Source: Bdellovibrio bacteriovorus (lineage in GTDB: Bacteria; Bdellovibrionota; Bdellovibrionia; Bdellovibrionales; Bdellovibrionaceae). Taken from it: a stretch of DNA of 64,000 bases. Position 1 is the first letter of the stretch. The number at the start of each line of letters is the position of its first letter. Positions 5,022 to 63,080 of the stretch are shown here, piece by piece. Made by a program: the position numbers and the translations under genes. The notes under the pieces were generated by a model, which made no database searches, was not told the origin of the DNA, and saw only the letters and a program-made list of their open reading frames with translations. The stretch lies in assembly GCF_002208115.1 (NCBI RefSeq), contig NZ_CP020946.1, positions 620,001-684,000 of the forward strand. Direction: 5' to 3'.

Positions 5022-6482
5022 ATGAATTTCAAAGCTCAATTTAAAGGTCTGCGTGGAAAACTTCTGGGCGTGGCGGTTCTGCCGTTGATTGCGCTGTCGG
5101 TGACGGCGTGGATCAGCTTTCAGGGCTTCAGTCAGATCGGAGCCATGCTGAACGAATCTTATGAAGTCTATGTTCCGAACATCCGTTTGCTGGGACAGTT
5201 GAATTTGAATCGCGCCAATATTGGCTATTTCACCTTTGCCGCTTTGGCGAATAAAGAGGACATGAAAAACCGCGAAAACTTTGTCGGCCTGCTCGATCGT
5301 TCTGTTGATGCTTACAAGGCCGCGATGGCGGAATATGAAAAGCAGAATTATATTGAGGGCGAAGCAGAGGCATTCCGCGCAATGAAGGACAATTATCCGA
5401 AATATCTAGAGTACACCAAGCAGGTGCGTGAAGCTTTGCTGCGCGGAACTCCGGCGGACTTTGAATATGTGGTGAGCCTTGTGGATAAGGGGGGACCTTG
5501 GCAGGTTCTGCAGATCCAGATCGATCACACCATCACTAAAATTTATCAGATGTACACAGACATCAGTAAATCAAACAATGACCTGCAGAAAAAAGAACGG
5601 GCCCAGAAAGCCTCTTTGATTGTTGGCGTTGCGTTGGGTTCATCGTTGGTGCTGTTCCTGATTATGTTGTGGATTGCAAACCGTGTGTCCGGCTCTGTCG
5701 GTCGTGTTGTCGGGGCCCTGACTGAAATCAGTCAGAATGTCTCTGGCGCGATTTCCCAGCTTTCGGTGGCAGGTCAGGCCTTGTCGACGTCTTCCACGGA
5801 AGCCGCCGCATCCCTGGAAGAAACCGTGGCCTCTTTGGAGGAAATGACTTCCATGGTTTCGCGCAACTCTGACAGCGCGAAACAGGCGTCTTCTTTGGCG
5901 GATGATTCTTCGTCGGTGGCCAAAGAAGGGGAGCGTGAGATCAACGGATTGATTGAATCCATGTCTCAGATTTCCCGCGACTCCAAAAAAATTGAAGAGA
6001 TCATCCACGTTATTGATGATATCGCCTTCCAGACGAACCTGCTGGCGTTGAATGCCGCCGTCGAAGCGGCCCGCGCGGGAGAGCAGGGGAAGGGCTTTGC
6101 GGTCGTGGCCGAAGCCGTTCGGGCCCTGGCGCAGCGTTCAGCCACCGCAGCCAAAGAAATCAATGGCCTGATCAAGGAAAGTGTCGAGCGAACTGAAAAA
6201 GGCAGCGTCGTGGCTGACAATTCCGGCCAGGTGCTGACCCGAATCGTGTCTTCCGTTGAGCAGGTTGTGGTGCTGAACCGCGAGATTGCCCAGGCCAGCA
6301 GCGAGCAGTCGCAGGGCATTTCTCAGATTAGCAAGGCCATGAATCAGTTGGATCAGGCGTCGCAAAGCAATGCGGCTTCTTCAGAGGAAATCGCCGCAAC
6401 AGCCGGGGAAATCGAGCGTCGCGCCCACGAGCTGCAGCAGCAGGTTCAGATATTGAGTTCAGAAGTTCTTGGGGCCAGTTGA
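5022..6482 (+). CDS. methyl-accepting chemotaxis protein, 4HB-type sensor
   Basis: A chemoreceptor that signals to a CheA kinase. Membrane spans lie at about 15-35 and 195-220, bracketing a helical periplasmic region that looks like a four-helix-bundle sensor domain. The cytoplasmic signalling hairpin carries the highly conserved tip [45 protein letters not shown] canonical HAMP is poorly defined after the second span, and no C-terminal NWETF pentapeptide is present (it ends SSEVLGAS). AAGGAA precedes the ATG. It lies 12 bases behind the Tsx-like gene. The ligand is unknown. Confidence 0.93.
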   Translation: MNFKAQFKGLRGKLLGVAVLPLIALSVTAWISFQGFSQIGAMLNESYEVYVPNIRLLGQLNLNRANIGYFTFAALANKEDMKNRENFVGLLDRSVDAYKAAMAEYEKQNYIEGEAEAFRAMKDNYPKYLEYTKQVREALLRGTPADFEYVVSLVDKGGPWQVLQIQIDHTITKIYQMYTDISKSNNDLQKKERAQKASLIVGVALGSSLVLFLIMLWIANRVSGSVGRVVGALTEISQNVSGAISQLSVAGQALSTSSTEAAASLEETVASLEEMTSMVSRNSDSAKQASSLADDSSSVAKEGEREINGLIESMSQISRDSKKIEEIIHVIDDIAFQTNLLALNAAVEAARAGEQGKGFAVVAEAVRALAQRSATAAKEINGLIKESVERTEKGSVVADNSGQVLTRIVSSVEQVVVLNREIAQASSEQSQGISQISKAMNQLDQASQSNAASSEEIAATAGEIERRAHELQQQVQILSSEVLGAS

Positions 6483-8285
6483 TTACTGGCGGCCCTTTTC
6501 CATTCTTCTCAGGAATTCCGGAGCTTTTTCAAACTGAGTCAGAGTCAAAGCATCAATCCACACACCGTGTGGGTTGATGAACACCACCGTCGGCAGGCCC
6601 TGGATGTGATATTTCTTTTTCAGTTCACGCAGTTCCGGTGAATCCTTGGTCGCATCAAACTTCAAAAGCACATAATTTTCGGACATTGCACGCACGCGCG
6701 GGTCGGTGAATGTGTGCTCTTCCAATTCGTGGCAGGCGGCACACCATTCCGCCCAGAAGTCGATGATCACCGGCTTTTGATCTTTGGTGGCTTGAGCCAG
6801 AGCGGCTTCCGAATAAGGCTGCCAGTTCAGTTTCTGGATCTGATTGATGCTGGCGCCACCGATCATCTGCCCGCGGATATACGGGCGCAGATCCAGCACC
6901 GCAATCACGGCGTAACCAATACCCACCACCAGCAGGGCCTGCATCAGACCTTTTTGAATGTGACGAAGGGCGCTTTGGCCTTTCGCGGGCAGGAAGGCAC
7001 CATAGATGCTGGCCAGAACAATCAGGCCGATGGCCAGGGCCCCGTCAAACCAGCGCGCTGGCAGCAGCAGCTCCAGATAATAATAGAACGCAGAAAGCAT
7101 CAGTGTTCCAAGAATGAATTTGAAAGCATTCATCCACGGACCAGAGCGGGGCAGGGCATTGGCCAGTTGGTTGAAAAGTCCCAACACGATGAAAATCAGA
7201 CCCAGCCCCAGGGCGTAAACGAACAGATAAAGGAAGCCCATCATCTTGTTCTGCGTGGAGGCCACATAAGTCAAAATCGCCACCAGCACCGGTCCGACGC
7301 AAGGGCTGGCCACGATACCGGCAAACAGTCCTGTCAGATAGACCCCGATGACACCCTGTTTTTTGGTTCCGCGCCCCAGTTTGTTGCGCAGGAAGGCCGG
7401 CACCTGCAGATCATAAAGACCATACATGGACAGTGCCATTGCCAGGAAGATCGCACACACGACGGTCAGAACATAAGGATTCCCGAGGCTGGCTCCGAAC
7501 AGTCCGCCACTGGAGGCTGCCGCCAGGCCCAGCAGTGAATACGTTGTGGCAATCCCCAGAACATAAATGCAACTGGTGAAAAAGTTCTGCAGACGAGTTC
7601 TTTCGTTGGAATGATTTCCCAAAACAGCCAGTGTGATTGGAATCATCGGGAAGATGCACGGCGTGAAACTGGTGAAGATCCCGGCAAAGAACACAAAGAT
7701 CAATCCGGCGATCATGCTGCTTCCCAGGTATTTCTGGAAGTTGGCCGTATCAAAGAACTCTGTTGGCGCAACCATTGGTTGCACTTCGGCGTCTTTGATC
7801 TGAGCTTCACCTTCCACCATGGTCACCACAATCGGAACTTCAATCAGTTTTGTGGTCGGGAACAGACAGAACTGATCTGAACACGCCTGATAGGTGAGCT
7901 CCATTTTCATTTTGGTGTGTTTTTTCAGGAAACGGTGAGGGGCTTCAATATGCGCAGTGAGGGTTGCGGCTTTTTCCATTCCGCTGCGCATTTTTTTTGA
8001 GAACTTGTCGTGCCACTCAACGATCGGCTCAATCTTGAACGGAGCCACTTTGAAGCCATCTGGTTCAAGAATCACCACGCTGAATTTGTCTTCATAGGCG
8101 TGATATCCTTCGGGGAGCGTCATTTTAATTTCGATATTGCCGCCCTGACCCGGACTCCATTCGTAAGGCACGACTTTGGTTTCAGCCAGCAAAGGGTCTG
8201 TGTCATTGGGATCAGCAGCCCAAGACTTAGGACTTGCGAACAGGGAAAGCAGAATGGCAACAACGTAAAACAGGCTGAATCTCAT
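6483..8285 (-). CDS. dsbD: thiol:disulfide interchange protein DsbD
   Basis: DsbD moves electrons from cytoplasmic thioredoxin across the inner membrane to periplasmic thiol proteins. All three modules are present in 600 residues. A signal peptide and an N-terminal alpha domain carry Cys135 and Cys140 (ACSDQFC). The CcdA-like core of about eight spans has its Cys pair in FTPCIFP (C210) and ASPCVGP. The C-terminal thioredoxin domain carries WCAAC. The frame is open upstream to 8594, but ATG 8285 has AGAGGAAA upstream and starts a clean signal peptide, so I use it. It is divergent from motA, with about 100 bases between. The gene stops on the base after the chemoreceptor stop codon, in convergent orientation. 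Confidence 0.95.
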   Translation of the reverse strand: MRFSLFYVVAILLSLFASPKSWAADPNDTDPLLAETKVVPYEWSPGQGGNIEIKMTLPEGYHAYEDKFSVVILEPDGFKVAPFKIEPIVEWHDKFSKKMRSGMEKAATLTAHIEAPHRFLKKHTKMKMELTYQACSDQFCLFPTTKLIEVPIVVTMVEGEAQIKDAEVQPMVAPTEFFDTANFQKYLGSSMIAGLIFVFFAGIFTSFTPCIFPMIPITLAVLGNHSNERTRLQNFFTSCIYVLGIATTYSLLGLAAASSGGLFGASLGNPYVLTVVCAIFLAMALSMYGLYDLQVPAFLRNKLGRGTKKQGVIGVYLTGLFAGIVASPCVGPVLVAILTYVASTQNKMMGFLYLFVYALGLGLIFIVLGLFNQLANALPRSGPWMNAFKFILGTLMLSAFYYYLELLLPARWFDGALAIGLIVLASIYGAFLPAKGQSALRHIQKGLMQALLVVGIGYAVIAVLDLRPYIRGQMIGGASINQIQKLNWQPYSEAALAQATKDQKPVIIDFWAEWCAACHELEEHTFTDPRVRAMSENYVLLKFDATKDSPELRELKKKYHIQGLPTVVFINPHGVWIDALTLTQFEKAPEFLRRMEKGRQ

Positions 8286-8339
8286 GAGTTTCCTCTTAGT
8301 ATCTCTCCGGACCATGGGCAAGTTTATTTGCGACTGACT

Positions 8340-8366
8340 CAATATTAACACAGTTCGGTCCGATAG
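8340..8366 (+). promoter_or_regulatory. possible sigma28-like promoter of motAB
   Basis: TCCGATAG at 8359-8366 matches six of eight bases of the flagellar sigma28 -10 box GCCGATAA. The matching -35 position (CAAT, 8340-8343) is poor. The idea rests mainly on the -10 and on motAB being typical late flagellar genes. Confidence 0.25.
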
Positions 8367-8388
8367 AGAAACTGAGAGGTCATATCTT

Positions 8389-9255
8389 ATGGGTTTTGTA
8401 GGTATATTAGTTGTATTCGTGATGGTGTTCGGCGGCTTCCTTATAGCCGGCGGTAACATGTCCGTGATCATCAAGGCGGCCCCTCTGGAGCTGATGATTA
8501 TCGGGGGCGCGGCCCTCGGAGCGTACATTATTGCCAATCCGATGAAGGTTATCAAAGCCGGATTCAAAATGAGTATCAAAGCAATGACGGCCAAAGGACC
8601 TCAAAAGCAGGACTACGTCGAACTGTTGCAGATGATGTTCCAGTTGTTCCAGGCTTTCCGTAAAGAAGGTCCTCAGGGTATTGAAAAACACATCGAGGAA
8701 CCGGACAAGAGTGACATCTTTAAAGCTTATCCAAGTTTCATGCACAATCATCATGCGGTTCACTTTCTTTGCGACACGATGAAAATCACGCTGTCTGCAG
8801 AAATGTCCCCTTACGATGTTGATGATTTGCTGGATGCCGACATCAAAGCGATTCACCACGAAGAACACATGGCGGTTCACGCCGTGCAAACAGTGGCCGA
8901 TGGTTTCCCGGGTCTGGGGATCGTTGCCGCGGTTTTGGGTATCGTTAAAACGATGGCCCACTTGACGGACGGGGTTGAAAAGATCGGTGCCTTGGTTGCA
9001 AGCGCCCTGGTTGGAACGATGTTGGGGGTTTTCGGTGCTTACGGTCTGATTGGTCCGACGGCGACGAAGATGGGTGCCGATATCGATGCTGAAGGCCGTT
9101 ACCTTGGCTGTATCAAAGCGGCGATGGTGGCTTTGCAGCGTGGTGCGCCTCCGATTGTGTGTGTCGAGTACGCTCGCCGTTCTATTATGCCTGAAGAAAG
9201 ACCTTCTTTTGAGGAAGTTGACAAAGCTACCAAAGAAATCAAGAAAGCAGCTTAA
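8389..9255 (+). CDS. motA: flagellar motor stator protein MotA
   Basis: The stator channel subunit that surrounds MotB and converts ion flow into flagellar rotation. The 288 residues show the four-span MotA layout: two N-terminal spans ([21 protein letters not shown], then [16 protein letters not shown]), a charged cytoplasmic loop, and spans three and four ([49 protein letters not shown]). GAGAGGT lies eight bases before ATG. motB follows after two bases. B. bacteriovorus is known to carry three motAB pairs; whether this pair uses H+ or Na+ cannot be told from sequence alone. Confidence 0.96.
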
Positions 9256-9257
9256 TC

Positions 9258-10214
9258 ATGGCAGAAAAGAAACAGACGATCGTTATCAAAAAGATCATAG
9301 TTTCCGGCGGCGGTCACCACGGGGGTTCCTGGAAGGTGGCCTTGGCCGACTTTATGACGGCCTTGATGGCGTTCTTCCTCGTTATGTGGCTGGTGGGGCA
9401 ATCTGAAGAAACCAAAAAAGCGGTTTCCGATTATTTCTCCACGCCTTCTGTTATTGAATACAACTTCCAGAACTTCGGTGCTGAAATCACTCTGGAAAAA
9501 CTTTTCCTGGATATTCTGAATGAGCCGTTGAAGGCCTTCCAGAGTTTCATGGAGCCGGCAGATAAAACTCCGAACCTGCTGGACATGGGCTCCACAAAAG
9601 TGGTGGCGGCTTATCTTGCGGATCAGATGACAGATGTGGCGAAGAACGTCACGGTCACTCCGGATGGGTATGACTTTGATATTCCTGACTACATGCTGTT
9701 TGAGCGTGGCACATCCACGCCGAATGCAAACTTTGTGAAAGTCATGGACAAGATCAAGGGAATCACCACCGGTTTGAAGGATGCGGATATCAAGCTGACT
9801 TCGGGTCTGTTCATTCAGGCGGTTCCGGATGGCAGTGTGATGTCGGCGAACAAGGTGGCTTCTGAGCGCTTTGACATTGTTCGTGCCAAAATCATGGCTT
9901 CACTTGAAAACAACACGGTGAATGTTTCCGGTGGCATCAGTGTGAAGGAAAAGCGCGGTGAAATTGATCCAGCCAAACTGGTTGGTTTTATCCGTGTGAA
10001 GATCGCGCAGAAAGAAATCACTTCCGACGGTCATAAGCCACGCAAGCTCGAAACCCTGTTTGGCCCGTCCCGTGTGGATATGTCTGTGTATGACAGCTTT
10101 GTGAATCAGATCAGCAACCGCAAAGCGGCTGAAAAGAAGGACCTGAAACAGCAAGTGGATCAGGACCTGAAAGAAGAAACGGGTATTACAGATCCGTTGA
10201 TGCAGACAGAATAA
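9258..10214 (+). CDS. motB: flagellar motor stator protein MotB
   Basis: The stator subunit that anchors the motor to peptidoglycan and carries the ion-binding site. One span ([23 protein letters not shown]) holds Asp31, matching the essential Asp32 of E. coli MotB. The C-terminal OmpA-like domain is recognisable only weakly ([29 protein letters not shown]), so peptidoglycan contacts may differ. A basic, Gly-rich N-terminus ([20 protein letters not shown]) precedes the span. It is co-transcribed with motA. Its last 29 bases overlap the convergent porin gene. Confidence 0.94.
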
Positions 10215-13439: not shown

Positions 13440-13838
13440 TTATTTGCGCGGGCGCAAATAGTGGCGCACCAGTTCGCCGGTGCTTACATAAGACCCGTCC
13501 TTAAAGACACAGCGATCCAGGGCGAACCATTCCTTAGAGGCTTCAAACTCCAACAGTTCCGGTTTGCCGCCCAGTTTGCGGCACAGGTTGAAGCCGGGAT
13601 TGCTTTTTTGATCCAGAATGTCCGCCGTCTTTACTTCGATATCGACAGTGAAAGCCGTGCATTTGCGGTCCTGGCAGTCTTTGGAGTAAAGTTCGGTGCG
13701 ATCCTCGTTGAAGCAATAAGTCTGCGCTTCAACAACTTTGGTTTCAGCATTGTATGGCATACGGAAGCTGCCTTTTTGGCAGGTCAAATCCGCAGCAAAG
13801 ACGGGCGTTGTCAGAAACAGAATCAGACTACTTAACAT
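13440..13838 (-). CDS. small secreted protein, function unknown
   Basis: A 132-residue exported protein: signal peptide MLSSLILFLTTPVFAA, then a mature part with six Cys (TCQKG, TYCFN, KDCQDRKC, NLCRK, DRCVF) that suggests three disulfides. I recognise no domain. ATG 13838 is preferred to GTG 13847 because the signal peptide begins cleanly there and AAGG sits about nine bases upstream. The start overlaps the end of the papain-like protease gene by 11 bases, so it is translated with it and could be a partner, inhibitor or chaperone. That is inference from position only. Confidence 0.68.
   Translation of the reverse strand: MLSSLILFLTTPVFAADLTCQKGSFRMPYNAETKVVEAQTYCFNEDRTELYSKDCQDRKCTAFTVDIEVKTADILDQKSNPGFNLCRKLGGKPELLEFEASKEWFALDRCVFKDGSYVSTGELVRHYLRPRK
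13441..13460 (-). other. hairpin at the end of the 133-aa secreted-protein gene
   Basis: TATTTGCG and CGCAAATA form a perfect eight-bp stem around CGGG, lying within the last codons. It is followed on the minus strand by AAACGGGCTTTTAAGG, so it may terminate or stabilise the protease operon mRNA. Confidence 0.4.
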
Positions 13839-15096
13839 ATGTTGCACCCTTGCCTCGTTTTACGATATCCGCTTTAGGAATCCAGATGTTGCCCTCTTTG
13901 CACTGGTAAGAAGGATCATAGTAACCACAACTGCGGCCCCAGGAATTTCTTAGCAGGTACTCGCACTGCCCGGATTTTTCATTGAATCTGCGGCCGACCA
14001 GAACACTCGCGTGCATTCCCAGTTGGGAATAGTCGCGGCGGTCGCCCAGGCCCTGTGCATCGTAACTGAGAACAACCGGATTTTTCGCGCTCAGTTGTTC
14101 ATCGATTTCATCACCCAAAGATTTTTCGCGGAAGGTCCATGGAGAGGAGACCTTCAAATCTGTCTTGATGCGCTGTTTGCATGTGCGGTTGGCCATCTGG
14201 TCGATGAAATCCGCGCGCGAAGAAGTTTTCAGGATGTGTTCCAGATCCTTGGTGCTGACGTTCGGAAACAGACGGCGCGAGGTCTGATAGACCTTTTCAC
14301 AGTTCGGGGCCGACCACGAAGTGATCTCGTCCCGTCCTAGTTTGTCGATCTGGGTGATCAGTTCCTGAAATTCACCGTTGATGTTGTCTTCGCTGGGGAA
14401 GTCTTTCTCAAGACAAAGGCCTTTTTCGATGGCCCCTTCCAGGGCGCTGGACGGGAAGCCGCCCTCAAGGCTGCCGGCTTTGACGCCGACGTATTTGGCC
14501 CCGGTGTTGAACAGGCTGTCGTTATAGTTGACGGCGATGTCCGCGGCCGAGATTTTCTTTTTCAGTTTGAAGGACAATACATCCGCAGCAGCAAAGGCAT
14601 AACACCAGCCGATCGAATCCTGATTTCGCACCGGGCCCATTTCTTTGCTGACGTCCATGGGTTTGCAGGATTGTTTTTCGCGCGCATAGGATTTTTCAGC
14701 CTTCGCTTTCAGGCCGTTCGTGAAGGACTTCAGAATGTTCGGAGGAAAACCCAGGGCTTTACCGTAGGCGGTGTAGGCCTCGACAAATTCATTGATTCGA
14801 CCTGTGTTCGCATATTGTTCCATGTCGACCTGGATGCGGTTGAATTCAGCTCGAAGTGTTTGCGTGCGCAGGGTCGGATAGAAAGTTTCAGGCACACCCA
14901 GTCTGCGGCTGGGAATCTTGCATCGCTGCATGCGACCGGTCAGTGAGTCGATCTCCATCGACATATCGTATTTTTGATAGCCCTGGGCAATCTGCTTTGC
15001 CTGAAGTTGGATGCTGGAAATGCTGCAGTTATCGGCATGAGCCTGTGGGAAAGGAAAAGCCGTCAAAAATAGGATTACGATCAATGTGCTGCGCAT
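13828..15096 (-). CDS. secreted papain-like (C1 family) cysteine protease
   Basis: A 422-residue exported protein with signal peptide MRSTLIVILFLTAFPFPQAHA. After a helical region of about 120 residues that may be a propeptide, the C1 signature appears. NQDSIGWCYAFAAADVLS holds the oxyanion Gln and catalytic Cys, MHASVLVGRR the catalytic His, and LLRNSWGRSCG the catalytic Asn. C1 proteases hydrolyse peptide bonds and are usually activated by propeptide removal. In a predator it is likely to degrade prey protein, which is inference. The 133-aa gene overlaps its 3' end. Confidence 0.9.
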   Translation of the reverse strand: MRSTLIVILFLTAFPFPQAHADNCSISSIQLQAKQIAQGYQKYDMSMEIDSLTGRMQRCKIPSRRLGVPETFYPTLRTQTLRAEFNRIQVDMEQYANTGRINEFVEAYTAYGKALGFPPNILKSFTNGLKAKAEKSYAREKQSCKPMDVSKEMGPVRNQDSIGWCYAFAAADVLSFKLKKKISAADIAVNYNDSLFNTGAKYVGVKAGSLEGGFPSSALEGAIEKGLCLEKDFPSEDNINGEFQELITQIDKLGRDEITSWSAPNCEKVYQTSRRLFPNVSTKDLEHILKTSSRADFIDQMANRTCKQRIKTDLKVSSPWTFREKSLGDEIDEQLSAKNPVVLSYDAQGLGDRRDYSQLGMHASVLVGRRFNEKSGQCEYLLRNSWGRSCGYYDPSYQCKEGNIWIPKADIVKRGKGATYVK

Positions 15097-54275: not shown

Positions 54276-55633
54276 AGTTACAGCACGCCAAATTCCATTT
54301 CGTAGGTATTGGAGGCATCGGTATGTGCGGCCTCGCGGAGCTGTTGCACAATATCGGCGCGAAAGTATCCGGCAGTGACCAGGCTGAAAACGCCAACACG
54401 GAAAGACTGAAAGAACTGGGTGTGAAGGTCTTTAAAGGCCACGCTTCCAGCAACGTGGGGGACGCTGACGTTGTGGTCTATTCCAGTGCGATTCAATACG
54501 GAAACCCCGAGATCTCCGAAGCGCGCGCTCGGCAGATTCCTCTGATCCCGCGTGCCGAGGCTTTGGCGGAAATCATGCGCCTGAAGCGCGGTATCGCAGT
54601 GGCGGGGACGCACGGAAAGACCACCACAACGTCCATGACTTCTGCGATTTTCCTGGAGGCCAACCTAAGCCCGACGATTGTGATCGGCGGCCGCTTTGAA
54701 CTGATCAAGTCCACAGCGATGCTGGGTTCCGGTGAATGGCTGGTGGCCGAAGCCGATGAGTCCGACGGAAGCTTCCACAAGCTGTCCCCGGAAATTGCGA
54801 TCATCACCAATATTGACTCGGACCACCTGGAACACTTCAAGACCTTTGAAAATGTGCAGAAGTCTTTCCACGACTTCGCGATGAAAGTTCCTTTCTATGG
54901 CAAGGTCATCGTGTGTGGCGATGATCCGCTGGTTCGTCAGATCTTTGAAAACTTCCCGAAAAGAATCCTGTTCTATGGCTTCGATGAAAAGAACGATTTG
55001 GTTGTGACCGGAGAGCAGGGGCACTATGCGGTTCACCGCAATGATCGTCTTCTGGGTACAAAACATCTGGTGGGTGAGTTCAATCTAAAGGTTCCGGGTC
55101 GTCACAATGCTTTGAATGCGGTGGCGGCGATTTGTGCGGGTGTGGCCGCGGGGATTCCGTTTGCAACATGCGCCAAGGGTCTTCAGCGCTATGAAGGCGT
55201 GGATCGTCGATTCCACTTCAAGGGCGAGAAAAAAGGCATCAAAATTTACGATGACTATGGTCACCATCCGACTGAAGTGCGCGCCGTTTTGCAGGCCTTC
55301 CGTGAAAAGTATCCGAAGCAGAGACTGGTGGTTTTCTTCCAGCCGCATCGTTATTCCCGCACACAGCACTGCTGGCATGACTTTACCACGGCCTTTATGG
55401 AAGCCGATCAGGTTCTGCTGACAGATATCTATCCGGCGGGTGAAGCGCCAATTCCAGGCGTGACCAGTGAAAAGCTGGCTTCAGAAATGAAACATGAACA
55501 CGCCCAGTATTTTGTGCGTGATGAAAAAGCGACTCAGAAAATTCTGGGCATGTTGAAAGAAGGCGACGTGTTTGTCACCCTCGGTGCCGGAGACGGCTGG
55601 AAACTGGGACTGGATGTCCTGAATCAGCTTTAA
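54272..55633 (+). CDS. murC: UDP-MurNAc-alanine ligase MurC
   Basis: MurC adds L-Ala to UDP-MurNAc, the first peptide step. Motifs: FVGIGGIGMCGLAELL, VAGTHGKTTTTSM, EADESDGSFHKL, NIDSDHLEHF and YDDYGHHPTEVRAVL. The stop overlaps the converging dehydrogenase gene by four bases. In many bacteria murB and ddl follow here; neither is present. Confidence 0.97.
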   Translation: MKLQHAKFHFVGIGGIGMCGLAELLHNIGAKVSGSDQAENANTERLKELGVKVFKGHASSNVGDADVVVYSSAIQYGNPEISEARARQIPLIPRAEALAEIMRLKRGIAVAGTHGKTTTTSMTSAIFLEANLSPTIVIGGRFELIKSTAMLGSGEWLVAEADESDGSFHKLSPEIAIITNIDSDHLEHFKTFENVQKSFHDFAMKVPFYGKVIVCGDDPLVRQIFENFPKRILFYGFDEKNDLVVTGEQGHYAVHRNDRLLGTKHLVGEFNLKVPGRHNALNAVAAICAGVAAGIPFATCAKGLQRYEGVDRRFHFKGEKKGIKIYDDYGHHPTEVRAVLQAFREKYPKQRLVVFFQPHRYSRTQHCWHDFTTAFMEADQVLLTDIYPAGEAPIPGVTSEKLASEMKHEHAQYFVRDEKATQKILGMLKEGDVFVTLGAGDGWKLGLDVLNQL

Positions 55634-56589
55634 TACAAAGAATCCCCGGGGCGTTGGCCTTCCAGCGCCGCGGTGACATTGTCCAAAGCCCGGTGACCCA
55701 TGGCGGATCGGGTTTCGACCGTCGCACTTCCCATGTGCGGAGTTAAAAACACATTCGGAAAATCACGCAGCTTCAAGTTGTAATCAGGTTCATGGCAGAA
55801 CACATCAAGTCCGGCCGCAAACAGATGACCGCTTTGCAGCGCTTTGATCAAAGCATCCTCATTCACCAGATTCCCGCGCCCTACATTCACCAGCACCGCG
55901 TTTTTCGGTAGCAGCGAAAAGCTTTTGCTGTCCATGATGCCATTGGTTTCCGGAGTGCTGGGTGCATTTAAGGAAATGATCTGACAGTGCGGAAGCATGT
56001 TGTGGAAGTTTTTAAAATACACGGCATCTTTTTCAAGTTCCGGCGGCAATCGTTTGTTGTTGCAATAGATGATCTTCATGCCAAAACCGCGGGCGCGGTC
56101 GGCAAGAGCCCGGCCGATGCGGCCCATGCCCAGAATCCCCAAAGTTTTGCCGCTGACCTGCAGGCCCAGCATGTCCGTCTGGCTGTAGGTTTTTCTCCAG
56201 CCGTCCTGCATGATGGACAGATACTCGCGTCCGCGACGGCAGGCATTTAAAAGCAGCATCATTCCCAGATCCGCCGTGCACTCGGTCAGCACTTCCGGAG
56301 TGTTACTAAGAAGGATGCCGCGCTCTTTGGCGGCACTGATATCCAGGTGTTCAAATCCCACACTGGAGGTGGCGATGATTTTTACGGAATCGGGCAGAGC
56401 TTTAATGACATCGGCAGTAATTTTCTGACGGGGTACAACCACGATGGCAGCAGGCTGGATCTTGTGAACCTGATCCAGCATTTCTTCGACGGAAAGTTCT
56501 TTGGCCGAAATCGTGGCTTTGAACTGACTTAATGCGCGTTCAAGGACCGAAGCCGGTGGCAGAAAGGAAAAGAGCAGGATGTGTTTCAT
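55630..56589 (-). CDS. D-isomer-specific 2-hydroxyacid dehydrogenase
   Basis: An NAD-dependent dehydrogenase. The nucleotide site is LGILGMGRIGRALADRARGFGMK, the catalytic Arg sits in VNVGRGNLVNEDAL, Glu in DVFCHEPDYN and His in TPHMGSATVETR. Length 319 and pattern are close to glyoxylate/hydroxypyruvate reductases, but the substrate is not certain. It starts the minus-strand block between murC and ftsQ. Confidence 0.92.
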   Translation of the reverse strand: MKHILLFSFLPPASVLERALSQFKATISAKELSVEEMLDQVHKIQPAAIVVVPRQKITADVIKALPDSVKIIATSSVGFEHLDISAAKERGILLSNTPEVLTECTADLGMMLLLNACRRGREYLSIMQDGWRKTYSQTDMLGLQVSGKTLGILGMGRIGRALADRARGFGMKIIYCNNKRLPPELEKDAVYFKNFHNMLPHCQIISLNAPSTPETNGIMDSKSFSLLPKNAVLVNVGRGNLVNEDALIKALQSGHLFAAGLDVFCHEPDYNLKLRDFPNVFLTPHMGSATVETRSAMGHRALDNVTAALEGQRPGDSLY

Positions 56590-56633: not shown

Positions 56634-58457
56634 TCAATTTGCTATACGATTCATGCAATTCCAGTTGGCTTTGAAGCGGTTGCCTTGAATTTTCATTGAA
56701 GAGGCCAAAGCAAGACATTCGGACCGGCTCAATTGTTTTTGTTCAGACAATTTGGACCAGCAGTACCAACGAACATTGTCGGAACTCTCTACATCGGCAT
56801 TGCGATCGGCCGCTTCAAGACACGACCCCAGGTGGATATCGTGGTTAAATCGGGTCAAACAATTCCAGTCGACGCCGGTCACACTTTGTGTTTCAAAACG
56901 GCGGGCGAAAAGATGACATTTCAAAGGATTGTCAATCAGCGGTTCAAACTGGTTGTAACAATACCAGCGATAGCCATCGCGGGATTCAGCGTTGTCACCG
57001 GAAGCCGCTTTCTGCAAACATGTTTCCACCATTTGCGGCAGCATTTCTGTCGGGGCCTTCAGGCCGATGCTGTAGCTCATGTCCAGACGGTCGCGTTGTG
57101 GCCATTGGGCCGAGGCTTTCAGCAACTGACTGAAATCGTGGGAATACAAACGGCCCTTGAGCGCGCGCAAAGCTTCGCGACGAATCGGGGATTCGTTGCT
57201 GTACATCATCTCTTTCAGAAGGCCTTCGATGCCCATGTCATAGCTTCCGAAGCATTGGGACAGGCGCGGGATGAATTGCCATGCATCGGAAGTATATTGC
57301 AGCCAACTGGCTTTCAGCTCGGTGGTCTTCAGCAGATCCTTCATGGCGCAGAACTGGTCTGTCACGATAAAGTTCAAACCGTCCCCTAGTCGCTGACGGA
57401 TCAGGCGTTCCTGCTGTTCAGCTTTCACCATATCCGGGAGAAGTCCCAATTGCGCCTGCAGATCCAGGAATTGCATTTTCATTTTCAGTGGCAAAGAGCG
57501 CGCAGAGCCGATTTGCAGGAAGAAGTTTTCAAAGTTGCGGGTGGCTTCAGCCGAAGCACGCAAAGTGTCCTGCAGCAGCGCCATGAACAGCGGATTCTGG
57601 GTCGCTTCCAAAAGAGGTTCATAGTATTTCTTCAGATGCAGTTTCTTGGCCAGGAAATGGATGGCTTCGCGATTTTCGTTGATGCTTTCAGAATACGCGT
57701 TGCAGGTCAGGGCCTTGTAGTTTGGATCGGACTCGGTCTTGGGTGCGACGATGCGATAGCTCATCCCGGCAAAAAGCTGATTCAGCTTTTTTGTATCCGG
57801 GCCTTTGCTGAACAGAGTCTGTGCGCTGGTGTCGCGCAGGGCTTTCTTCAGCAGGGGGCCTGCGACTTTTCCCATGGGTCCGGTGCTGGTGAAACCATGC
57901 AGGCGCTCGACGTTGTTAAAGGCCGAAGAAAAGATCTGACTGATGCTCATGCCGTATTCGGAATAGCGGGAAAAAGCCACGCGTTCAGCAAGGTCACGGG
58001 GAAATCCGTTCTTGATCAGAACTTCCACGTACTCTTCAATCGAGCGTTTGTCCGGGGTTTTGCTGGAAAGGGTGTTGCAGCCCATCAGGAAGACGTCTTT
58101 GGGTTTGCTTAAAATCCCCGGGCAGGAGTTTTCGCAGCTCAGCCTTTCGATTTCCTTCAGATCCAGAGTGGTGCTGTTGCCTTCCCCAAAGAACACGCCC
58201 CCAAAGTGGCCGGAAATCAAAAGCACGTCACATTGAATGCCGGAGTTGCAGGCGTTTTGCAGCCAGCGGGGGTTCTTGCCTTCCGTGGGAACAAGCTCGG
58301 TGATCTCGACATCCTGGGAAGCGTAAAGCTGTCTCAACGCCTCTTTTTCGTCCGCGGAATTCAGGGTCATTGTGCAAATGCGTTTGGTGGCCGCTTCGAC
58401 AGAAGGGCTCCCAAGCATAACCAGCAGTCCAAGACAGAGCAGGGATTTCAGTTTCAT
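56634..58457 (-). CDS. secreted CHAT/caspase-like protein with C-terminal Cys repeats
   Basis: A 607-residue exported protein (signal peptide MKLKSLLCLGLLVMLGSPSVEA). Residues about 25-150 resemble the clan-CD caspase/CHAT fold: a core strand CDVLLISGHFGG with candidate catalytic His84, a strand-helix DLKEIERLSC, and DVFLMGCNTL with candidate catalytic Cys127. Residues 150-475 are helical and unfamiliar. The last 130 residues are four repeats of about 33-35 residues, each with two Cys 19-20 apart and ending R-W-Y-C or D/N-W-N-C. These are the same units as in the 149-aa protein at 20576-21025. Activity is inferred and untested. Confidence 0.72.
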   Translation of the reverse strand: MKLKSLLCLGLLVMLGSPSVEAATKRICTMTLNSADEKEALRQLYASQDVEITELVPTEGKNPRWLQNACNSGIQCDVLLISGHFGGVFFGEGNSTTLDLKEIERLSCENSCPGILSKPKDVFLMGCNTLSSKTPDKRSIEEYVEVLIKNGFPRDLAERVAFSRYSEYGMSISQIFSSAFNNVERLHGFTSTGPMGKVAGPLLKKALRDTSAQTLFSKGPDTKKLNQLFAGMSYRIVAPKTESDPNYKALTCNAYSESINENREAIHFLAKKLHLKKYYEPLLEATQNPLFMALLQDTLRASAEATRNFENFFLQIGSARSLPLKMKMQFLDLQAQLGLLPDMVKAEQQERLIRQRLGDGLNFIVTDQFCAMKDLLKTTELKASWLQYTSDAWQFIPRLSQCFGSYDMGIEGLLKEMMYSNESPIRREALRALKGRLYSHDFSQLLKASAQWPQRDRLDMSYSIGLKAPTEMLPQMVETCLQKAASGDNAESRDGYRWYCYNQFEPLIDNPLKCHLFARRFETQSVTGVDWNCLTRFNHDIHLGSCLEAADRNADVESSDNVRWYCWSKLSEQKQLSRSECLALASSMKIQGNRFKANWNCMNRIAN

Positions 58458-58598: not shown

Positions 58599-60128
58599 TC
58601 AGGCGGCTTTGCGACCTTCGACGACCGAGATCAGTTCCTGAACCATCGAATCCATCTGCTGGGATCGCTGGGCAAGCTCTTCAGCGGCCGAGGCACATTC
58701 ACCCGCGGCCGAGGCATTGTTCTGGGTCACACGATCCAGTTCATTGATGGACATGTTGATCGAGCTGACCCCCTGGGACTGCTCCGTGCTGGCGGTGGAG
58801 ATTTCAATATTCAACGCCGTCAGTTTTTCGATCTGCACCACGATTTCATTCAGCATCGTGCCGCTGGCCTGAACAACCTCGTGACCGCTTTCAATTTTGT
58901 GAACGCTGTCCTCGATCAGGGTGGCGATCTCTTTGGCGGACGTGGCACTTCTTTGTGCCAGTGCGCGCACGGCCTCCGCAACTACGGCGAAGCCTTTGCC
59001 TTGCTCTCCGGCGCGGGCCGCTTCCACTGCCGCATTCAGGGCCAGAAGATTGGTCTGGAAGGCGATATCGTCAATAACTGAGATGATCTCTTCGATCTTC
59101 TTGGAGCTCTTCGCAATGTCATCCATGGAAAGAATCAGCTTTTCGACCTCATCTTTGCCATGGCGGGCTTTGACCTGCGCGGTTTCAGCCAGTGAGCGGG
59201 CTTCGTTGGTGTGTCCGGCATTCAGCTTGATCATGCTCGACATTTCCTCGGTGGCCGAAGTCGTCTGTTCGATGGAGGCCGCGGCCGTCGTGGCGGCGCT
59301 GCTGAGGTCTTGAGAGGACTTGGAGATTTCAGAGCTGGCTTGGGCGACACTGGTGCCTGTTTCTTTCAGTTTCACCGCGATGCCGGAAAGGGCCTTCATT
59401 GGGCGGTTTAACACCACAAAGGCCAGGCCCATGGCAACAATCGACAGGCCCACGGCAACAAGCACGATGTACATGGTGGCATCGGTAGCTGCGGCTTTGA
59501 CTTTGTCTTTGCTTGAAATCACAGCGAAACCGCCATGCAGTTTACCGTCGGACCAGTCTTCCATGGGATAGCCCAGAATGTCCTTGCCGTTTTTCCAAGG
59601 GGACTGGGAAGGGGAGCCGTGGCAGTTCATGCACCCCTGACTGGATGAAAGGCGCACCGGACGGTATACGATCACGTGATTGTCGGTGGTTGCCGTGAGC
59701 TCTTCCAATTTTGGATCGGCCTCAAATTTTTTCAGAATGTCCATTTCTTCCTGAGTGGCGCGATTGTCCGAATTGCGCGGTTCACCCGAGAAAATGCGGA
59801 AAGTATAGCCTTCCTTTTCAGCGCCTTCAGCGCCCACTTTCATTGCGGCAAAGATGGGAACCTGCTTCAGGATGGCCATTTTGGATTCTTTGGAAAGATT
59901 GCCATCAGGATGATCCTCGATGGCCTTTTCGATGCTGGCTTTTAATCCACCCTGGGAAGCCACGTAAGAGCGCACGGCTTCCAGGCGGGAAAGGATCGCT
60001 TCTGATTTTTCGACCAGATGGGATTCGCCTTCGTGCGAGATGCGGGATGATGCCACGATCACAGCTGCGGTCGTGCAGATCACGCAAGCAGTGCCAATAC
60101 TGATCATAACTTTGGTGCTGAACTTCAC
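58599..60128 (-). CDS. chemoreceptor with c-type heme sensor domain (Tll0287-like)
   Basis: A 509-residue methyl-accepting protein. Span 1 lies at about 7-28; the periplasmic domain, of the DUF3365/Tll0287 kind, carries the heme c site C166-M-N-C-H170 and the following [23 protein letters not shown]. Span 2 at about 214-236 leads to the signalling hairpin with [43 protein letters not shown]. Covalent heme suggests redox or gas (O2, NO) sensing. Start is GTG 60128 after AGGTTT. A close paralogue lies at 61349-62887, on the other side of the UspA gene. Confidence 0.93.
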   Translation of the reverse strand: MKFSTKVMISIGTACVICTTAAVIVASSRISHEGESHLVEKSEAILSRLEAVRSYVASQGGLKASIEKAIEDHPDGNLSKESKMAILKQVPIFAAMKVGAEGAEKEGYTFRIFSGEPRNSDNRATQEEMDILKKFEADPKLEELTATTDNHVIVYRPVRLSSSQGCMNCHGSPSQSPWKNGKDILGYPMEDWSDGKLHGGFAVISSKDKVKAAATDATMYIVLVAVGLSIVAMGLAFVVLNRPMKALSGIAVKLKETGTSVAQASSEISKSSQDLSSAATTAAASIEQTTSATEEMSSMIKLNAGHTNEARSLAETAQVKARHGKDEVEKLILSMDDIAKSSKKIEEIISVIDDIAFQTNLLALNAAVEAARAGEQGKGFAVVAEAVRALAQRSATSAKEIATLIEDSVHKIESGHEVVQASGTMLNEIVVQIEKLTALNIEISTASTEQSQGVSSINMSINELDRVTQNNASAAGECASAAEELAQRSQQMDSMVQELISVVEGRKAA

Positions 60129-60280
60129 TTTGAAACCTCTTGTTCCTTATTTTGTTTAATTGGAATGAGGCTCTTATCGAACAAAAGCTCTGTAATCTTC
60201 CTTACAAATGTGAGAAGCCATCTCCACCGGGCGGGGGATATTTCTTAATAACTTGTCCGGCGAGCGTTTAAAATTGAAGT

Positions 60281-60311
60281 AAAAAAAGGCAGGTGACTAA
60301 GCACCTGCCTT
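60281..60311 (-). terminator. terminator after the UspA gene
   Basis: AAGGCAGGTG and CACCTGCCTT form a perfect ten-bp stem; on the minus strand it is followed by a run of seven T. Confidence 0.85.
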
Positions 60312-60343
60312 GGGCAATGAATTTGTAATAAAAGGTCGAGCTG

Positions 60344-61270
60344 TTAAGATCTCACAACAATTACAGGAACGGGGGATTTTGCGATCATGTCGCGAAGGTT
60401 GGATCCCAGAAGCGTGCCCAGAAGTCCGCCGTGGCTTTCATCACCCATGCAGATCAGATCGCAGTTGCCGGCAGGTCCCGCAAGGAAGGTGTCCACCAGC
60501 GGAGTTTTTTCCTGCTCAATGATGCCCTCGCAGGAAATGCCCTTGCTGCGCAGACGCTCCAGTTTTTTCTCCATGGAACTCTGGGCGTCTTTTTTGATGT
60601 CAGTATAGATGGTGTCGATACTTGGAGTCGCTTCCCCAGCAGCAAACATGTATTGCTCTACCGTGCGCAAGGTTTCTGCGACGGAATGATAAAGAACAAC
60701 GTGGGCACCCAGTCGTTTCGCCAGACTGACGCCATAGGTTTCAGAGGCGCGGCACTTTTTCGTCAGATCGGTGACGATGGCGATGCGCAGGTCCTTTTTG
60801 GTCGGCAGGCTGTAGTCGTCGCGCTGAGTGCCGGGGCCCAGGATGTAAACGGGCCGCTTCACATTGCGCACTACTTCCTCGGCCACGCTTCCCAGGAAGA
60901 ACCGGTCCATCCCTTTGAGTGCGCGGGACCCGACGATCAAAGCTTCAACGCTGTTGGTGTCTTTGACGGCGTCAGAGATTTCTTTCACTGGCGAGCCGAA
61001 CTTCACAATCAACTTTCCGGGAACAGCAAAGTTGTTCATGACCGGGGCCAGTTGATGATGTTTGTGGCTGATGATTTTGGCTTTTTCAGCATAGGAAAGT
61101 GCCAGTCGTCCCGGAATGTCTTTGAGTGTTTTGATATACAACAAAGACACCGGGCAATTCAGGCGGACAGACAGGTCCGAGGCGAAGCGACGGTTCACCT
61201 GGGATCTTTTCAAAGAGGCTTCGTCTTTATGTTCCAGTTCGTCGGCAATAAGAAGTGAATGAGTGGTCAT
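60344..61270 (-). CDS. tandem universal stress protein (UspA)
   Basis: A 308-residue cytoplasmic protein made of two UspA domains. Both carry the nucleotide-binding end motif G-x2-G-x9-G-[ST]: GSRALKGMDRFFLGSVAEEVV in the first and GDESHGGLLGTLLGSN in the second. UspA proteins bind ATP and help cells survive stress. It stands between two heme-c chemoreceptors on the same strand with terminators around it, which suggests a shared redox or energy signal. That is inference. Confidence 0.9.
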   Translation of the reverse strand: MTTHSLLIADELEHKDEASLKRSQVNRRFASDLSVRLNCPVSLLYIKTLKDIPGRLALSYAEKAKIISHKHHQLAPVMNNFAVPGKLIVKFGSPVKEISDAVKDTNSVEALIVGSRALKGMDRFFLGSVAEEVVRNVKRPVYILGPGTQRDDYSLPTKKDLRIAIVTDLTKKCRASETYGVSLAKRLGAHVVLYHSVAETLRTVEQYMFAAGEATPSIDTIYTDIKKDAQSSMEKKLERLRSKGISCEGIIEQEKTPLVDTFLAGPAGNCDLICMGDESHGGLLGTLLGSNLRDMIAKSPVPVIVVRS

Positions 61271-61348
61271 GCTATCCTCCTTGTCTTGAAGGATAGCACT
61301 TTAACTGCGCGGGTCTATGATTCCCGTCATCATTTGTCTATTTTTGGG

Positions 61349-62887
61349 TCACGAAGCGGCCTGGTCTGAGTTTCCGCTAATAATAACATTCAGTTGCTGG
61401 ACTGCTTCTTCCATAACAGATGACTGGCGCGTCAGCTCTTCTGAAGCAGCAGCGCACTCTTCGGCTGCCGCTGCGTTGGCTTGTGTGATTTTATCCATGT
61501 CGGTCAAGGCCTTGTTAATTTGCAGAATGCCCTGTTCCTGTTCTGAGCTGGCGCCGGATATTTCCGTATTTAGGGCGGACAGCTTTTCGATGGTGGTTAC
61601 GATTTCTTTTAATGAATCTGCACTGGATCGAACAACTTCGTGACCTGACTCAATCTTTTCAACACTGTCGTTGATCAGATTGGAAATTTCTTTGGCGGAA
61701 GTGGCGCTTCGTTGTGCCAGGCTGCGAACGGCCTCTGCGACGACAGCAAAGCCTTTGCCATGTTCACCGGCACGGGCCGCCTCTACAGACGCATTCAAGG
61801 CCAGCAGATTGGTCTGGAAGGCGATATCATCAATCACCGTGATGATCTCTTCGATTCTTTTTGAGCTGGAAGTGATTTCATCCATGGATGTCGTCAGCTT
61901 CTGAACCTCGCGTTCACCGATGCGCGCCTTTTCCTGGGCGGTGTGGGCCAGGTCGCGGGCTTTGGAGGCGTGCTGGGAATTCATTTTCACCATGCTGGAG
62001 ACCTCTTCAGTGGAAGCGGAGGTTTCTTCGATGGAAGCCGCCGCCTTCACGGCGGAATTGCTGAGGCTTTGGCTGGAGCTGAAGATTTCATTGCCGGTGG
62101 TCGACACCTGCGTGCCGGCGCGGTTGAGGGTGGCAATCGCCTCCAGCAGTGCGCCCAGAGGGGAGCGCAGCAGTGCATAGGAAACGGCCAGAATCACGAC
62201 CGTGATCAGCAAAGCCCACAGCAAAATAGAGTAGGTGGTGTTGCTGGCGGCCTCGGCGACACGGTCTGTGGAAGAGGTCACTGCGAACACACCGTGAAGC
62301 TTGTTGTCGCTCCAGTTTTCCATGGGGTAACCCAGAATGTCTTTGCCGTTGCCCCAGGGACTGTTGGCAGGATTTCCGTGGCACAGCAGGCAGCCTTGCG
62401 ATTCTGACAGACGCACGGGACGATAGACCACGACCTCGTGATCGCCCCGGGTGATGATCTCTTTCAGTTCAGGTTCTGCTTCAAAGCGCTTCAGGATTTC
62501 CAGTTCAGAGGTTGTGGCTTTGTTGGATTCGCGGCGCGGGGCTGCGGTGAAGACCCGGAATTTGTAGCCGTCTTTTTCTGCATTCTCAAAACCCACGGCC
62601 ATTGATGCGACGATGGGAACTTTGCGCAGCAGTTGTTTGCGCACTTCTTCAGGCAGGTTGCCATCCGGATATTTTCCGACGGCCTGGGCAAAGTCCTCTT
62701 TCAGATTTCCGGAGGTTGCCACATATCCACGCATGGATTCAAGGCGGGAAAGAATCGCCTGGGATTTGTCGACCAGTTGGTCGCGTCCCTGTTCGTGGAT
62801 TTTGGAAGAAGAGATTCCCACCGCTGCCAGAGTGCAGACCACACACGATAAAGCGACGTTTAAAATGACCTTGGTGCCAAACTTCAT
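61349..62887 (-). CDS. second chemoreceptor with c-type heme sensor domain
   Basis: A 512-residue paralogue of the neighbouring heme chemoreceptor. The same layout is seen: span 1 (about 7-28), sensor domain with C166-L-L-C-H170 and [23 protein letters not shown], span 2 (about 213-236), then the signalling hairpin with [46 protein letters not shown] 62887 has AGGAG five bases upstream; the frame is open from 62932. Small changes (N-A-S-V, G-E-H) in the tip separate it from its twin. Confidence 0.93.
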
Positions 62888-63080
62888 AGAATCTCCTTCG
62901 CTGCTATCTATCGGTAATGAGGTCGAAAACAATATGGACTAAAGCTCGTTTTGTTGCGGTTTGAAAACCTAAGTGCACAAAGGTCCAGTGAAAGACCTTG
63001 GTCTTGTTTTGCGGACAGCGTTTCATTGTTGGCGATCTTGTTGCTAATCTAAAATTCACGACAGCAGAGGATTTCCGACT

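Follow-up and report, generated by a model that had tools for sequence, protein, structure and literature searches.

What does the gene lying between murC and ftsQ in this stretch of Bdellovibrio bacteriovorus DNA encode, and where would its product act? Within the window (the whole stretch analysed, 64,000 nucleotides), the gene runs on the strand opposite to the wall genes, an arrangement also seen in close strains, and had been described by a first-pass annotation as a secreted CHAT/caspase-like protein with a Cys-repeat tail. Its open frame divides into the following parts:

56634..58457, minus strand: gene of the predicted exported caspase-fold protein, an open frame of 607 amino acids with an ATG start
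58392..58457, minus strand: Sec signal peptide, residues 1-22, from the sequence and a hydrophobic leader in homologues
57813..58391, minus strand: predicted clan CD (caspase-like) domain, residues ~23-215, from an AlphaFold2 model and Foldseek
58206..58208, minus strand: His84, predicted catalytic histidine in an SGHF motif, from its invariance and its place at the end of strand beta-3
58077..58079, minus strand: Cys127, predicted catalytic nucleophile in a GCNTL motif, from its invariance, its place at the end of beta-4 and the lack of a co-varying Cys partner
57048..57812, minus strand: all-helical solenoid, residues ~216-470, with Cys252 and Cys370/Cys402, from the model, HEAT repeats in relatives and Cys co-occurrence
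56637..57047, minus strand: Cys-repeat tail, residues ~471-607, helical with 8 Cys, from the sequence and Cys columns gained or lost together

The signal peptide, read from the sequence as MKLKSLLCLGLLVMLGSPSVEA, would be cleaved after ...SVEA, and the tail cysteines (480, 500, 514, 533, 546, 566, 581 and 601) sit in a helical W/R-x-C repeat. Each element that had been picked out earlier, namely a signal peptide, ISGHFGG with His84, FLMGCNTL with Cys127 and a Cys-rich C-terminal region, is present in the 607-residue frame. Evolutionarily, the gene is under strong purifying selection: comparison with its two closest orthologues gave dN/dS values of 0.048 and 0.039, and the ratio is low across the domain, the solenoid and the tail. 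All homologues examined (71/71), some of them ~20% identical, keep His84 and Cys127; given this selection and this invariance, the motifs and the tail lie beyond chance. A scan for promoters and terminators around the gene gave no signal above chance.

Structurally, the protein escapes the domain libraries, since Pfam and NCBIfam gave only noise-level matches and hold no model that covers the domain. A full-length AlphaFold2 model, built with 28 homologues as input, reached a pLDDT of 87.7 and a pTM of 0.79, with the solenoid mostly at pLDDT 85-95, and its fold search returned mainly helical-repeat proteins, none a good match; residues 23-245 were therefore modelled separately with 70 homologues as input (pLDDT 93.2, pTM 0.90). 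Searched against the PDB with Foldseek, this second model found chains of caspase-9, caspase-8 and CED-3 (peptidase C14 type) as its first seven matches, the best with an E-value of 1.3e-4 and a probability of 1.00, followed by weaker matches that included legumain, MALT1, the C11 peptidase iotapain (6nag) and the Clostridioides difficile toxin protease domain, with unrelated folds among them. All of the proteins named here belong to clan CD. TM-scores were moderate (0.4-0.5), and the relation to caspases is therefore remote. Both model and Foldseek recover the alpha-beta-alpha fold of the caspase/hemoglobinase type, with a conserved His after beta-3 (His84, at the end of strand 78-85) followed by a conserved Cys after beta-4 (Cys127, at the end of strand 121-127), and on this model the front domain very probably has a caspase-type fold. 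The caspase-like clan CD fold and His84/Cys127 dyad proposed by the first-pass annotation on the strength of motifs are thus borne out by the structure match and by the invariance of both residues, which holds in 70/70 homologues of the alignment as well.

That alignment of 70 rows has only four strictly invariant columns, Glu37, Ser82, His84 and Cys127. The His-Gly and Ala-Cys motifs that are usual, though not universal, in clan CD were not found: the residue after His84 is Phe in 65/70 homologues and His in the other five (5/70), and the residue before Cys127 is Gly in 67/70 and Ala in 3/70. Clan CD enzymes usually carry Gly after the catalytic His, and its backbone helps to form the oxyanion hole. 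Two residues before Cys127 stands Met125, a position that is Met or Phe in the homologues and an invariant Asp in the C14 set of the phylum. By sequence search, phmmer matched the protein weakly to a caspase-3 structure (E 0.0027); in the caspase-3 alignment printed from the family profile Cys127 was aligned and His84 fell one column off the caspase His, for which reason we count this match as weak support.

Export appears to be a trait of the whole family, as a hydrophobic leader-like stretch precedes the domain in 70/71 homologues (the remaining one is truncated at a contig edge), and in two relatives (L063 and L064) the leader is lipobox-like. Across 65 sequences, Cys108 and Cys252 are both present in 60, both absent in 5 and mismatched in 0, and Cys370 and Cys402 are both present in 54, both absent in 10 and mismatched in 1, while among the most divergent members Cys28/Cys76 were lost together in 2/2 cases and Cys70/Cys112 in 4/5, counts that may exceed the number of independent events where losses share an ancestry. 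Because these cysteines are lost in pairs, we predict disulfides 28-76, 70-112, 108-252 and 370-402, which would fit an oxidising, extracytoplasmic site; the predicted disulfides in turn leave Cys127 as the sole unpaired invariant cysteine, as expected of a nucleophile. This last point, together with the dyad's persistence down to ~20% identity, which pseudoenzymes seldom retain, tells against a caspase-fold protein with little or no catalytic activity, in which domain and solenoid would form an exported receptor or scaffold for binding. Such a protein would account for His-Phe in place of the clan's His-Gly and for large helical repeat scaffolds that make up most of the length, yet we consider it unlikely and take the domain to be a predicted peptidase.

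To which family would such a peptidase belong? By fold and dyad the protein is a member of clan CD, in a family that the libraries searched do not name; none of the Pfam clan CD families, including the gingipain C25 and separase C50 profiles, matches it. The His-Cys spacing is 42-43 in 59/70 homologues; for the phylum's C14 proteins it is mostly 42, and for the C11 members compared it is 50-63. By motif (SGHF...GC at a spacing of 42-43) the nearest family would be C14. The protein shares with C14 (PF00656) the caspase-9/-8/CED-3 fold, the SGH of the phylum's C14 members and the spacing, but differs in its His-Phe and in lacking the Asp two before Cys, and its leader, predicted disulfides and solenoid are features of its own; PF00656 matched neither the protein nor the homologue domains, nor anything else in the window genome. 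A C14 metacaspase-type protein does occur in a Bdellovibrio genome without the family (L123, G017:C13:239926-240561). Profile-profile comparison with the phylum's C14 and C11 alignments gave no match, and its positive control, C14 against C11, gave none either.

Secreted clan CD peptidases are known, among them the C11 enzymes iotapain and clostripain and the gingipains of C25, and the protein resembles these in being exported with a clan CD fold, iotapain having been among its structural matches. Unlike them it has a C-terminal solenoid, and it is further set apart from C11 by its shorter spacing, by the absence of a PF03415 match in the protein or the window genome and by the lack of an identifiable propeptide loop. 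Since such enzymes exist, and prokaryotic caspase homologues have already been noted to carry probable signal peptides (PMC3501461), export as such is not new, and the earlier suggestion that an exported caspase-like protein would be a novelty was overstated.

The CHAT assignment of the first-pass annotation did not hold: PF12770 failed to match the protein, reached only 1/70 homologue domains (E 0.044) and had 0 matches in 114 genomes of the phylum and none in the window genome, and CHAT was rejected. CHAT, TPR-CHAT and Craspase proteins do share with it the general clan CD design and attached helical repeats, and the GC(N/S)T-like context of Cys127 is one that we take to resemble CHAT and separase. 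Separase (C50) presumably resembles the protein also in the G-H and GC-S/N context of its dyad and in its attached helical repeats; however, it is a eukaryotic cytoplasmic or nuclear enzyme whose repeats precede the catalytic domain. In contrast to CHAT effectors, the 607-residue protein is exported, is predicted to be disulfide-bonded, carries HEAT-like repeats at its C-terminus rather than TPR upstream, and is without defence neighbours. Caspase-like and CHAT proteases that carry repeat domains commonly serve as defence effectors, and a cytoplasmic-style effector of this kind might have been misread as exported, but the near-universal leader and the co-varying cysteines make this hardly credible, and PADLOC, which has no model covering the domain, yielded two noise-level matches and nothing else. 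Among the loci compared, no sensor, nuclease or other gene of that sort was a conserved neighbour, and searches of plasmids and viral contigs found no relatives; with the PADLOC, neighbourhood and plasmid/viral searches all against it, the defence effector was rejected.

From a genomic-context perspective, the murC-ftsQ interval that the gene occupies here and in close strains could suggest a role in the cell wall or in division, tied to the adjoining mur and fts genes. Opposed to this are the gene's orientation on the other strand, the adjacent dehydrogenase and chemoreceptor genes, which come and go among close strains, and the location of the gene elsewhere in G013 and in all more distant species examined, with no neighbours shared beyond close kin. 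Because only close strains retain the gene at this position, the murC/ftsQ neighbourhood is uninformative, and the weight once given to the adjoining wall genes is unwarranted; on synteny the linkage was rejected, and we hold a wall factor to be highly improbable. Downstream by 44 bases on the same strand lies a 2-hydroxyacid dehydrogenase gene (55630-56589), which only the closest strains have at this position and which is possibly co-transcribed with the caspase-fold gene. On the other side (58599-62932), a universal-stress-protein gene has a chemoreceptor gene on either side of it, and the number and order of these genes vary in close strains, with one chemoreceptor in G006 and two, without a universal-stress-protein match, in G019.

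Full-length orthologues (56-100% identity) were found in 9/24 of the genus genomes searched, and the family-profile search of cellular genomes, which covered the phylum Bdellovibrionota, found the domain in 96/369 genomes, about a quarter. The window genome holds a single copy of the family, while two near-complete Bdellovibrio genomes (G007 and G018) are without the gene, which is therefore dispensable for life in the genus. Architecturally, HEAT repeats follow the domain in some relatives (5/28 in one set and 11/39 in another); the solenoid of the 607-residue protein, all-helical in the model, has diverged beyond Pfam recognition.

Taking these lines together, we posit as the probable reading an exported clan CD cysteine endopeptidase with a scaffold that positions a specific substrate. 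The chain would be exported through Sec and would then fold either in the periplasm, which is oxidising, or extracellularly, where disulfides 28-76 and 70-112 would brace the catalytic domain and disulfide 108-252 would tie it to the helical solenoid. Cys127 would remain free as the nucleophile with His84 as general base, and the solenoid and the Cys-repeat tail would probably pick out a specific protein substrate or hold it in position. A predicted role in narrow processing is more likely than one in digestion, since the genome has one copy, the scaffold is large and an operon partner is lacking.

Where this predicted peptidase would act, and on what, we can address only conditionally. One version has it process envelope proteins in the predator's own periplasm rather than aim at prey, and we give that version a little less than an even chance: the family extends across the phylum, beyond Bdellovibrio; the lipobox-like leaders of L063 and L064 would anchor those relatives in their own envelope; and some Bdellovibrio genomes do without the gene. 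On the phylum-wide spread and the lipoprotein-like forms we lean slightly towards the own envelope over prey. A broader proposal, in which a new clan CD family characteristic of Bdellovibrionota, its catalytic domain locked by disulfides and steered by an exported HEAT-like or Cys-repeat solenoid, would make regulated cuts in chosen prey or predator envelope proteins at set stages of the predatory cycle, is at present speculative, as is any part of the protein in predation.

The characterised exit proteases of Bdellovibrio, Bd2269 and Bd2692, are serine proteases. A predicted caspase-fold peptidase that is exported and was missed by the domain libraries searched would bring a separate class of enzyme into predator-prey biology and would give clan CD a new family with an unusual oxyanion context (His-Phe); if true, the reading would bring caspase-like proteolysis, regulated rather than digestive, into interactions between bacteria. 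Our literature search returned no report on the gene, no mention of Bd3193-Bd3197 with Bdellovibrio and no CHAT domain with Bdellovibrio, and 'caspase-like' or 'metacaspase' occurred with Bdellovibrio only in papers on other subjects. The main text of a predation proteome study names ftsZ as Bd3189 and ftsA as Bd3190 and no other Bd319x or Bd320x locus, and the same source reports ~150 predicted proteases for Bdellovibrio (PMC12546842). Counted on from ftsA, the orthologue in B. bacteriovorus HD100 would probably fall near Bd3194.

Several relatives of the gene or of its parts occur in other settings. Exported proteins of 158-186 amino acids that consist solely of the Cys-repeat module of the tail occur in other Bdellovibrio (L119, L120, L121 and L122) and make up an uncharacterised helical Cys-repeat family. 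At L171 (G067:C13), a divergent family member and the gene of an exported C11 (clostripain-type) peptidase stand head to head (6419-7918 and 8091-9323). Three exported family members lie in tandem at L170 (G226:C43, 8509-16389; also L099), and at least one of them has a WD40 propeller behind the domain, at its end; the L170 members are interleaved with two near-identical proteins of ~130 amino acids (8104-8496 and 13645-14034).
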